In this document: piece after piece, positions 18,154 through 21,029 of the stretch
Numbering within the stretch: position 1 is the stretch's first letter
Layout: the number at the start of each line of letters is the position of its first letter
DNA from: Alphaproteobacteria bacterium
GTDB lineage: Bacteria > Pseudomonadota > Alphaproteobacteria > Rs-D84
NCBI GenBank assembly: GCA_017502865.1
Contig: JAFVUD010000006.1
Coordinates: 81,699 to 145,698, forward strand
Reading direction: 5' to 3'
DNA length: 64,000 bases
Notes under the pieces: model-generated
Told to the model about the DNA's origin: nothing
The model's input: only the letters and a program-made list of their open reading frames with translations
The model's database searches: none
Made by a program: the position numbers and the translations under genes

Positions 18154-18183
18154 AAAAATGCACCACAGGGGTACATTTTTTAT
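18154..18183 (-). terminator. Terminator-like hairpin, probably the ancestral tRNA-fMet terminator
   Basis: AAAAAATG and CATTTTTT arms enclosing an ACC/GGGT stem. Read on the minus strand it lies just downstream of the 15-bp tRNA-fMet 3'-end copy at 18189-18203, where a tRNA terminator would be. Confidence 0.65.
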
Positions 18184-18188
18184 TTAAC

Positions 18189-18203
18189 TGGTTGCGGAGT
18201 GTG
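18189..18203. repeat. Distal att-like copy of the tRNA-fMet 3' end
   Basis: Fifteen bases identical to the 3' end of tRNA-fMet (including CCA). After that the sequence diverges (CGGTCCTCGAACTA against GATTTGAACCA), although a GAAC core of the T-loop remains recognisable. Confidence 0.75.
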
Positions 18204-18312
18204 CGGTCCTCGAACTAATAACTATATGGATTTAATATCATTTGGACACGAAATACAACTTTTTAAAGACAAATTAGGTTTATAGAATTTACACTGAATA
18301 TTATCAAAAATA

Positions 18313-18341
18313 TTGATTTTTTGCGGTTTTCATTGTATAAT
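18313..18341 (+). promoter_or_regulatory. Promoter of the RhuM-family gene
   Basis: TTGATT (18313-18318), 17-base spacer, perfect TATAAT (18336-18341), followed by AAAAGGAAAA before the ATG at 18366. Confidence 0.75.
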
Positions 18342-18365
18342 ATTCCGCGAAATAAAAGGAAAAAT

Positions 18366-19394
18366 ATGAGTAAATCAGATATGATATTCGTATACGATAA
18401 AAAAGATGGAAGCCCTGTAATAAATCCACATTTTTTTAATAACAATATGTGGTTGACACAAAATCAAATAGCCCAATTATTTGATACAACTCAGGGAAAC
18501 GTCAGTAAACATATTACAAATATTTATTCTGATAGGGAATTACCAGAAATCACGACTCATTCCAAAAATGAATCGGTCGTGAATCGTGGTTTTAGGGGTG
18601 CTGTTAAAGAGCAGCTAGATGTTTATAATTTAGATGTGATAATTGCGGTCGGTTATCGGGTAAATTCTAAAAAAGCTACAGATTTTCGTATTTGGGCGAC
18701 AAATGTATTGCGTGAATATATACAAAAAGGTTTTGCTTTGGATGACGAAAGGTTTAAGCAAGGTTATCCTGATGATAAGCAATATTTCAAAGAATTGCGC
18801 GAAAGAATCAAAGAAATTCGTGCAAGCGAGCGAATGTTGTATCAACAAATTAAGGATATTTATGCTTTATCTGCAGATTATGATAATAACCGTCAGCAAA
18901 CAATGTTGTTTTTCGCAAAAGTTCAAAATAAACTTTTGTTTGCAATATCTGGCAAAACTGGGCCAGAAATAATTCATAGTAGGGTTGATTCAAATAAAGA
19001 AAATATTGGACTTACATCATTTAAAAATTCACCAGATGGTAGAGTCACAAAACAAGATGTTGAAATAGCAAAAAATTATCTGCAAGAGCCAGAAATGAAA
19101 GAACTACGGTATATAGTAAATTTATTTCTGGATTATGCAGAACACAAGGCGGAATCCGAAGAAAAGATATTTATGCGTGAGTGGGAAATTTTATTAGATG
19201 ACTTTTTGTCTTTTAATAAAAAAGAAATATTGCCACGGGCTGGGTCGATTTCTTTAGAAAAAGCGTTAGAAAAGGCCCATAATGAATATTTTAAATATCG
19301 TGAAAATTTAAAAATATCAGAAAAGAAAGAATCGGAAATAGAGCATAAAGAAGATATAAAAGAATTGGAAAAATTATTAAAAACGGTTGAATAG
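18366..19394 (+). CDS. RhuM-family protein
   Basis: Members of the RhuM family (named from Salmonella SPI-3) are carried on genomic islands and prophages; their biochemical role is unsettled. The signature is clear: ending of the first domain WLTQNQIAQLFDTTQGNVSKHI (an HTH-like segment, about residues 28-50), then KEQLDVYNLDVIIAVGYRVN and FRIWATNVLREYIQKGF. The C-terminal half is helical and charged. I chose ATG 18366 because of the AGGA site and the promoter immediately upstream. Lys/Ile/Asn-rich codon use is more AT-rich than in the neighbours, in keeping with transfer. Confidence 0.92.
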   Translation: MSKSDMIFVYDKKDGSPVINPHFFNNNMWLTQNQIAQLFDTTQGNVSKHITNIYSDRELPEITTHSKNESVVNRGFRGAVKEQLDVYNLDVIIAVGYRVNSKKATDFRIWATNVLREYIQKGFALDDERFKQGYPDDKQYFKELRERIKEIRASERMLYQQIKDIYALSADYDNNRQQTMLFFAKVQNKLLFAISGKTGPEIIHSRVDSNKENIGLTSFKNSPDGRVTKQDVEIAKNYLQEPEMKELRYIVNLFLDYAEHKAESEEKIFMREWEILLDDFLSFNKKEILPRAGSISLEKALEKAHNEYFKYRENLKISEKKESEIEHKEDIKELEKLLKTVE

Positions 19395-19499
19395 TGTTGT
19401 ATTGACGATGTGATTATAATATATTGTTTTTACTATAAAAACACCACTTGAAAGAATCGGTTGATTTTATTGGGAATATTGTGTTATCCAATATATTAA

Positions 19500-19597
19500 G
19501 AAAGCCCAAAAGGGCTTTCGAGACTAGCAAGGTAAGTTTGCTAAGTGGATGTTACAAGCTTACTTTGCTCCGATTCACTTGTCAAATGAAAATTTGA
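19500..19597 (+). ncRNA. Structured leader upstream of the small basic protein
   Basis: Three consecutive hairpins lie before the ribosome binding site: GAAAGCCC/GGGCTTTC (19500-19519), an 11-bp stem AGCAAGGTAAG with CTTACTTTGCT (19526-19569, one G-U pair), and TCAAAT/ATTTGA with a GAAA loop (19582-19597). AAGAGGAG then precedes the ATG at 19618. The density of stems points to a regulatory leader or small RNA. Confidence 0.5.
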
Positions 19598-19617
19598 CTA
19601 ATAAGAGGAGTAAAACC

Positions 19618-19752
19618 ATGGCGAAAAAAGCGAATGGTATTCGTACTTCCAAAAGTGTTGCTTCTAAAGCTTCGGGGCTTTTAAGAGATAAGCGCACTTC
19701 TGCGAAGACGAAATCTGTTGCTGCTGCTGGTTTATGTAATCGTGGCAGATAA
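19618..19752 (+). CDS. Small basic protein, 44 aa
   Basis: Short Lys/Arg/Ser/Ala-rich protein (MAKKANGIRTSKSVASKASG, then LLRDKRTSAKTKSVAAAGL). It has an excellent ribosome binding site (AAGAGGAG) and its own terminator just after the stop, which supports a real gene. Similar short S-K-A-rich proteins occur on mobile elements, but I cannot assign a function. The composition suggests nucleic acid binding. Confidence 0.7.
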   Translation: MAKKANGIRTSKSVASKASGLLRDKRTSAKTKSVAAAGLCNRGR

Positions 19753-19757
19753 AACTA

Positions 19758-19781
19758 AACCGGTCGTATGGCCGGTTTTTT
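19758..19781 (+). terminator. Terminator of the small basic protein gene
   Basis: AACCGG / CCGGTT stem followed by TTTTTTAT. Confidence 0.85.
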
Positions 19782-19844
19782 ATAATAATATTGAAAAAAT
19801 AATATGTTGGAATATAATCATAATGTTTATAAAAAGGATACGAC

Positions 19845-20174
19845 ATGAAGAAAGCTATAATGTTGTTTTTTGTATGTTTGTTGACCGCGTGTTCTTCTAA
19901 TGAGCAATATGATTGTCATATTATCATAAAATATTACGATTGGACACGAGAAAAATTATGCGATGCTCCCTGTGATGAATGGAAAATCATAGAATCTTCT
20001 ATAAAAGAAAGAATTGAAGAAAAGCATGAAATTGTTTCTAGTAAAGAATTAAACCAATTTGTGCAATCTAAATACGACAATATGGATTTTGTTAATTCTG
20101 CGGATAAATATTTTACAGATAAAACAGGAAAACAACCAATGCAGATTATAAAATTGGATTGTAAAAAATTATGA
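19845..20174 (+). CDS. Small lipoprotein of the island
   Basis: The N-terminus MKKAIMLFFVCLLTACSS is a lipoprotein signal with lipobox LTAC (Cys16). The mature part is about 93 residues, with four further cysteines (CH, CDAPC, and Cys near the C-terminus) that could form two disulphides. AAAAAGGATACGAC precedes the ATG. I do not recognise the family. It is the gene nearest the tRNA-fMet attachment end. Confidence 0.65.
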   Translation: MKKAIMLFFVCLLTACSSNEQYDCHIIIKYYDWTREKLCDAPCDEWKIIESSIKERIEEKHEIVSSKELNQFVQSKYDNMDFVNSADKYFTDKTGKQPMQIIKLDCKKL

Positions 20175-20278
20175 TAATAAAAAATTAGTTATACTTATTT
20201 TGTTATCATTTAGTTCAAACGTGGTGAAAAAACATCATTTAACTTTTGAACTTTTTGTAGTTGTTGGAAACCAAACAT

Positions 20279-20302
20279 AAAACCGCCCTTATGGACGGTT
20301 TT
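20279..20302. terminator. Terminator between lipoprotein gene and tRNA-fMet
   Basis: AAAACCGcCC / GGaCGGTTTT hairpin with TTAT loop. It can stop the island transcript and, on the minus strand, the tRNA-fMet transcript. Confidence 0.75.
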
Positions 20303-20310
20303 ATAAATCT

Positions 20311-20387
<77 letters not shown>

Positions 20388-20576: not shown

Positions 20577-21029
20577 ATGGCACGTGCAATTCAAATTCGC
20601 CGGGGAACAGCCCAGCAGCATGCGGATTTTACCGGAAAAATCGGTGAAGTGACCATGGATACAACAAATAATACATTACGAATTCATGACGGTGCCACAG
20701 TTGGTGGTACGGTATTAGCAAAAAAAACAGAAATTCCGGATTTATCAAGTTATATGAAAAGACCCGATTATTTTAATAGAACAAGAGCACAAAATGGTAT
20801 TATTTACTATGCTGATTGCGATTACCTGGCATTAATGGCCAAAGGTGTGGGAGATGAAGCAACATTACATGTTTCACAAAATGCAGATATGTCGAATGCA
20901 GTTCGTATTGCAGAAGTTTTCATTGTTGCTGCAGGACAAATATTTTTTGACATCCAAGCCATTATCCCCAAGGGGTGTTATTATAGATTTGAAAACGTTG
21001 ATGAGATAAGATTGTGTAAAATGATATAA
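20577..21029 (+). CDS. Phage tail-fibre-like protein, 150 aa
   Basis: The first 50 residues (ARAIQIRRGTAQQHADFTGK, IGEVTMDTTNNTLRIHDGAT) match the N-terminal module found in phage tail fibres, hyaluronidase-like tail proteins and tropism determinants. The remaining 100 residues are short and unassigned (TLHVSQNADMSNAVRIAE). No other phage genes are nearby, so this looks like a domesticated or orphan cargo gene. The start is ATG 20577, preceded by TGGAGATTTAACC. Confidence 0.75.
   Translation: MARAIQIRRGTAQQHADFTGKIGEVTMDTTNNTLRIHDGATVGGTVLAKKTEIPDLSSYMKRPDYFNRTRAQNGIIYYADCDYLALMAKGVGDEATLHVSQNADMSNAVRIAEVFIVAAGQIFFDIQAIIPKGCYYRFENVDEIRLCKMI

Follow-up and report, generated by a model that had tools for sequence, protein, structure and literature searches.

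The insert of about 2.1 kb behind the initiator tRNA gene in the 64,000-nucleotide stretch of alphaproteobacterial DNA analyzed here (the window) belongs to a set of hundreds of small mobile gene cassettes that are stacked, in integron-like arrays, behind three tRNA genes in a genus of tiny rumen bacteria. We consider it likely that this element (positions 18189-20310) represents a non-autonomous form of a cassette family found across the genus and connected with a large serine recombinase (LSR), and that it was probably moved in trans by such an enzyme. Below, genomes of the order are designated by G numbers and individual loci by L numbers.

Insertion at the tRNA-fMet gene

The insertion target is the tRNA-fMet (CAT) gene at 20311-20387 on the minus strand, which was identified with ARAGORN and Rfam and whose 3' end, ..CACACTCCGCAACCA, occupies 20311-20325. 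A first-pass annotation had reported an att-like repeat of 15 bp, and this sequence, TGGTTGCGGAGTGTG, does recur exactly (15 of 15 positions) as a direct repeat at 18189-18203, the displaced tRNA 3' end; a perfect 15-mer repeated within 2 kb is far above chance expectation. Both of the hairpins that it had described are present as well. The one at about 18154-18183 (minus strand), GTTAAAATAAAAAAT..CACC..GGTG..TTTTTT, is the original downstream terminator, of the kind found directly after tRNA-fMet in many relatives and now located beyond the cassette, whereas the tRNA of the window is followed by AGATTTATAAAACCGTCC.., a different hairpin, at about 20277-20304.

The tRNA and the neighboring OMP gene were searched for in 59 genomes of the genus, and the regions found were read. 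The site is empty in G050, G064, and G049, where the tRNA is directly followed by a terminator and then by the same OMP gene 96 to 116 bp away; G050 and G064 have a GTT(A/T)AA-type terminator, like the one located past the distal repeat in the window. Other genomes carry different inserts of 0.15 to 11 kb in this place. Relatives therefore do not all have the same genes here, the predicted empty-site join exists, and the window insert is a real integrase-less insertion, as had been proposed from the window alone: a foreign 2.1-kb element was inserted at the tRNA-fMet 3' end, supplying a terminator in place of the original one. Neither a tyrosine nor a serine recombinase is encoded within 18189-20325, in agreement with the first-pass annotation, and tblastn of the LSR described below gave no match in the window. 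That annotation had suggested looking for a related integrase elsewhere; a related tyrosine integrase is not needed to explain the insert. That the element was inserted and that it belongs to the cassette family is close to certain. Across the tRNA from the insert, an ORF at 20577-21029 contains an Mtd_N (major tropism determinant N-terminal) domain, whose fold occurs in phage tail fibers and retroelement targets.

Ends and cargo of the window element

A conserved 109-nt left end (LE; 18189-18297, minus strand) with the core AGTTCGAGGACCGCACAC plus TCCGCAACCA has the distal repeat at its tip. This end is the one strong match of the LE model (R1) in the window (59 bits; E value, 1.4e-17), the next best place scoring 9 bits, and it is 88% identical at the nucleotide level to the LE of G095 and to that of G123. 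The 15-bp repeat includes bases supplied by the LE (GCACAC). The right end (RE; 20211-20310, minus strand) consists of the replacement terminator and the inverted repeat AAAGTTCAAAAGTT..TTTGAACT. It directly follows the CCA of the tRNA in the same orientation, a layout that is shared by G061, G009, G114, and G106, and over 70 bp (20241-20310) it has 81% nucleotide identity to the RE of G095.

The genes listed by the first-pass annotation, a RhuM-family gene, a 44-amino-acid basic protein under a structured leader, and a lipoprotein, are all present between these ends on the plus strand. The predicted lipoprotein (19845-20174; 109 amino acids; lipobox LLTAC) matches no Pfam family above the cut-off. 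The basic protein (19618-19752) belongs to phrog_5079 (PHROG, 6.7e-11); its homologues adjoin tRNA-fMet in G131, G193, G120, and G172 and are recurrent in tRNA-fMet islands. In five genomes (L111 to L115) the phrog_5079 protein is preceded by a small HNH-like protein (..LEVHHKR..DNAMVLCH.CH..), which suggests a two-gene module. The leader RNA of the gene for the basic protein (19496-19602) has a minimum free energy of -40.2 kcal/mol (z score, -7.0 versus shuffled sequences) and no matching Rfam family, and it is kept at 85 to 86% nucleotide identity in G131 and in G095, in the latter although the 44-amino-acid gene behind it has decayed.

The third cargo gene (18366-19394) encodes a RhuM-family protein of 342 amino acids (PF13310, 4.3e-96; PADLOC PDC-S05, 3.5e-122), for which no solved structure was found. 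It has 79% amino acid (82% nucleotide) identity to the RhuM in a tyrosine-integrase island of G142, and its relatives at the DNA level include Wolbachia phage WO and Streptococcus satellite phages. The defense-system search of the window set returned RhuM as PADLOC candidate family PDC-S05, which is unproven, and matched no established system. The first-pass annotation had taken these genes for candidate defense or colonization genes. We would not call the cargo set a defense island; the cassettes of the family carry mostly unrelated single genes, and the cargo does not look specifically defensive.

By nucleotide identity, the LE and the RE with the lipoprotein gene correspond to G123 (89%), the leader with the 44-amino-acid gene corresponds to G131 (76%), and the LE, RhuM with the leader, and the RE correspond to G095 (72 to 88%). 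The window element is therefore a mosaic, with segments that resemble several different cassettes. No DNA relatives of it were found in plasmids, and those found in phages were matches to the RhuM-coding part only.

A cassette family behind three tRNA genes

Window-type LEs (..TAGTTATTAGTTCGAGGACCGCACAC plus the CCA tip) occur in integrase-less inserts with other cargo in G095, G131, G061, and G044. An 18-nt LE pattern was matched in 35 of the order's genomes, compared with a handful for the reversed control, and about 30 of these share roughly 75 to 100 bp. With the LE model, a sequence-only model built from 25 copies, the end was detected in at least 101 of the order's 201 genomes and in at least 59 of the 126 high-quality ones, nearly all belonging to one genus; with 20 candidates per genome scored, the highest copy number was at least 16, in G114. 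An exact LE scan of about 85,000 species returned 13 stretches, all from uncultured proteobacterial or alphaproteobacterial metagenome-assembled genomes (MAGs), several of them labeled rumen, omasum, or horse faeces. Neither the LE nor LSR peptides were found in viral contigs.

Among 45 LE regions read, some genomes contributing several, 39 have a tRNA gene upstream in the same orientation, namely tRNA-fMet in 21 and tRNA-Gln(CTG) or tRNA-Gln(TTG) in 18. Four of the other six are on short contigs or close to contig ends; the LEs of the remaining two, in G117 and G107 (L202 and L213, respectively), have no tRNA in the stretch read and adjoin a large ORF resembling a DNA cytosine methylase. LEs are also arranged in tandem, at +1202, +2556, and +3462 from tRNA-fMet in G114 and at +858, +2492, +3473, and +4660 from tRNA-Gln in G154, with cassettes of 0.5 to 2.5 kb each that carry unrelated cargo; in the tandem arrays, the spacing of cassettes is 0.5 to 2 kb. 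The three tRNAs all end in CAACCA and have little else in common, which leaves a shared core of about 6 bp. The idea that the LE tip was copied from tRNA-Gln was rejected, because the glutamine tRNAs end in CTGCCCCAACCA, not in GCACAACCA. The minimal island proposed earlier is not supported as a one-off with a 15-bp tRNA-type att site; the ends of the window element match a genus-wide, LSR-tied family that occupies three tRNA genes and stacks in tandem. A limited literature search of open PMC text found no earlier description of this family.

Many genomes also have palindrome-rich mini-units of approximately 150 to 240 bp after tRNA-fMet, made up of a terminator, TGTGTTGTGTTGGATTTGAACCACAGA..TGTGGTTCAACCGC.., and 20 bp that duplicate the 3' end of the tRNA. 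They are tandemly repeated in G041 (L055, 3290-3636, oriented) and G074 (L058 and L059) and look like minimal cargo-free elements on the same CCA boundary.

Cassette cargo recurs across species boundaries. The lipoprotein of the window has 95.4% amino acid identity to a cassette gene of G123, compared with 76.2% for the VirB4 proteins of the two genomes, and a whole cassette of 483 bp is 93.8% identical between G082 and G123, its cargo being 98.4% identical in amino acids against 73.1% for VirB4. Recurrent cassettes encoding Fic, MYG1-like, methyltransferase, and phosphatase proteins are 90 to 100% identical. Judged by these identities, cargo is shown to spread horizontally between species. 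The cargo includes Fic, NADAR, S41 and S51 peptidases, HD, EamA, glutathione peroxidase, AlbA_2, GNAT, PQ-loop, histidine phosphatase, and exonuclease proteins.

Probable origin of the cassette ends from a large serine recombinase gene

The arrays are found without a tyrosine integrase: G114 (94% complete), G123, G044, and the window genome each have only two XerC/D-like PF00589 matches. XerC/XerD was considered as the mover and rejected, since there was co-occurrence only and no dif-like site was seen. An LSR of 511 amino acids (PF00239, PF07508, and PF13408; G004:C6:50,030-51,563) was found at tRNA-Gln(TTG) of G004, as the first gene of a 5.8-kb element that extends from the tRNA to a distal LE; the gene is oriented towards the tRNA, and its product terminates in ..NMNGCKSWL at the CCA junction. 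No other intact LSR was seen, and the 436 kb (49%) read of the window's own genome, a 78%-complete MAG, contained none. By sequence, the closest solved relative of the LSR is the phage A118 serine integrase (2.5e-4; 6dnw/4kis), which is distant and is a phage integrase with another target. An ORF of the LSR element (L278, 3092-8880) weakly matches the replication protein ORF2/G2P (PF23343, 1.6e-4), hinting that the circle of this element self-replicates.

Recombinase-less cassettes can retain apparent traces of an LSR gene at either end. The RE stretches of cassettes in G114 (at tRNA-Gln) and G154 (at tRNA-fMet) contain about 50 residues of the LSR C terminus, which extend in frame exactly up to the CCA junction. 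A profile made from the G004, G114, and G154 sequences detected a further remnant, in the junction frame, inside an array of G134, which is independent of the profile (iE, 1e-19). The LE family encodes, on the plus strand, the tail of the serine recombinase: read from the junction in the LSR frame, the LE gives WL(C)SVCSSRAELLEIGREIDELKDKLGL, so that the peptide continues from ..SWL into CSVCSSRAELLEIGREIDELKDKLGL. Stop codons interrupt this LSR-continuous frame in 2 of 26 sequences, versus 25 and 24 of 26 for the two remaining same-strand frames. The indel that distinguishes the two LE subtypes is 12 nt long and hence divisible by three. The in-frame remnants and the open LE frame are most simply explained if attP is located in the 3' end of the recombinase gene. 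Serine recombinases would be expected to have a short core and an attachment site within or next to their own gene. We regard an LSR origin of the cassette ends as highly probable.

Few cassettes keep an LSR remnant, and the window RE gave no significant profile match at the junction. The LE frame of the window is also shifted, by a 10-nt spacer in place of the 12-nt one. With a shifted LE frame and an RE without a readable LSR remnant, this copy may be a fossil.

Proposed mechanism

Cassettes insert after the 3' CCA of tRNA-fMet, tRNA-Gln(CTG), and tRNA-Gln(TTG). Autonomous members would encode an LSR whose gene spans attP, reading ..GCKSWL followed by CSVCSSRAELLEIGREIDELKDKLGL in the circle, where the LE-RE junction would be ..GCACACTCCGCAACCA joined to AGATTTATAAAACCG... 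Integration at ..CAACCA would split the gene, leaving its C terminus on the tRNA side (RE) and the last approximately 25 to 30 LSR codons at the far side (LE). Window-type cassettes would have kept both ends, with the recombinase replaced by one to three cargo genes, and probably were moved in trans by LSR made elsewhere in the population. Each cassette brings a terminator for the tRNA, and cassettes stack in tandem. We infer that the LSR would catalyze cassette insertion and that the window cassette may still be able to move; the evidence leans slightly towards mobilization by an LSR in trans at present.

Alternative explanations

The strongest alternative, which we nonetheless think unlikely, is that the same cassettes now spread only by homologous recombination (e.g., after DNA uptake) between conserved ends, tRNAs, and terminators, the LSR being a fossil. 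The ends are indeed 80 to 90% identical over 70 to 115 bp between species, and internal parts have been reshuffled between fixed ends, as the window element illustrates when compared with G123 and G095. The scarcity of recombinases, with one intact LSR seen and only the two XerC/D-like proteins each in the array-rich genomes G114 and G123, points the same way. However, homologous recombination does not explain the use of three different tRNAs that have only CAACCA in common, nor LE tips with various 3' ends, and the insertions are precise at CCA. Part of the cassette spread could still be due to homologous recombination between conserved ends.

Tyrosine-integrase islands of 6.7 to 11.2 kb that repeat 37 to 50 bp of the tRNA occupy tRNA-fMet in G004, G016, G065, G120, G142, and G172. 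RhuM lies between the integrase and the distal att site in five of the six, in the order tRNA, cargo, integrase, RhuM, distal att (L063 of G004, L085 of G065, L130 of G120, L131 of G172, and L159 of G142), and RhuM and a tyrosine integrase form a recurrent pair in tRNA-fMet islands. These islands and the cassettes have in common the tRNA 3'-end target, the direct repeat, and restoration of a terminator and tRNA end; the cassettes differ in lacking a tyrosine integrase, in a core of 6 to 15 bp rather than 37 to 50 bp, and in their ends. A window element derived by deletion from such an island (G004/G065/G142 type), its integrase lost, would account for RhuM beside the distal att site at the same tRNA, the integrase being its neighbor in the islands, and for the similarity of the window RhuM to that of the G142 island. 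We judge this very unlikely: the islands are without an LE, the window repeats 15 bp only and has both the LE and the RE of the cassette family, and RhuM alone is common to both. A pure deletion derivative, favored for RhuM beside the integrase, was therefore dropped. Integron gene cassettes (attC, IntI) beside tRNAs would likewise be tandem and mostly single-gene with a shared recombination end, but are extremely improbable, as the junctions, CAACCA and then AGATTT, GAGTTT, CGAATT, etc., do not fit G^TTRRRY, cargo genes are found on either strand, LSR tails are encoded by the ends, and no integrase adjoins the arrays; G114, the genome richest in arrays, has only its two XerC/D-like matches.

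Relation to known systems and significance

The LSR-tied cassettes resemble staphylococcal cassette chromosome (SCC) and pseudo-SCC elements, in which CcrA/B/C serine recombinases insert at the 3' end of one gene, elements stack in tandem, and some members are without a recombinase. SCC elements target rlmH and measure tens of kilobases, whereas the cassettes use three tRNA genes, measure 0.5 to 2.5 kb with one to three genes, and have attP inside the recombinase gene. Stacking of this kind is exemplified by ACME with SCCmec (PMC5964201). With integron arrays and CALINs, the cassettes share promiscuous, mostly single-gene units, a common recombination end, and the absence of a linked recombinase; in contrast, they have no IntI and no attC but serine-recombinase ends, a tRNA 3' anchor, and cargo in both orientations.

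We tentatively propose, as a possibility somewhat short of an even chance, that the family is a serine-recombinase analogue of the integron, in which one recombinase family would maintain arrays of interchangeable, mostly single-gene cassettes at three tRNA genes of a genus with reduced genomes. Because attP would lie inside the recombinase gene, each integration would swap the C-terminal tail of the enzyme, from CSVCSSRAELLEIGREID.. in the circle to a read-through of the tRNA antisense strand in the integrated state, and could thereby act as an intrinsic switch from the integrating to the integrated state and back. Such tail swapping is a concrete, testable hypothesis on LSR directionality, and the family, if correctly understood, would supply natural LSR att sites at tRNA ends. 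It would also represent a second, mechanistically unrelated route to integron-like arrays, using serine rather than tyrosine recombinases. Genomes of about 0.9 Mb are expected to lose mobile DNA; this genus nonetheless keeps a busy gene exchange behind its initiator and glutamine tRNAs.
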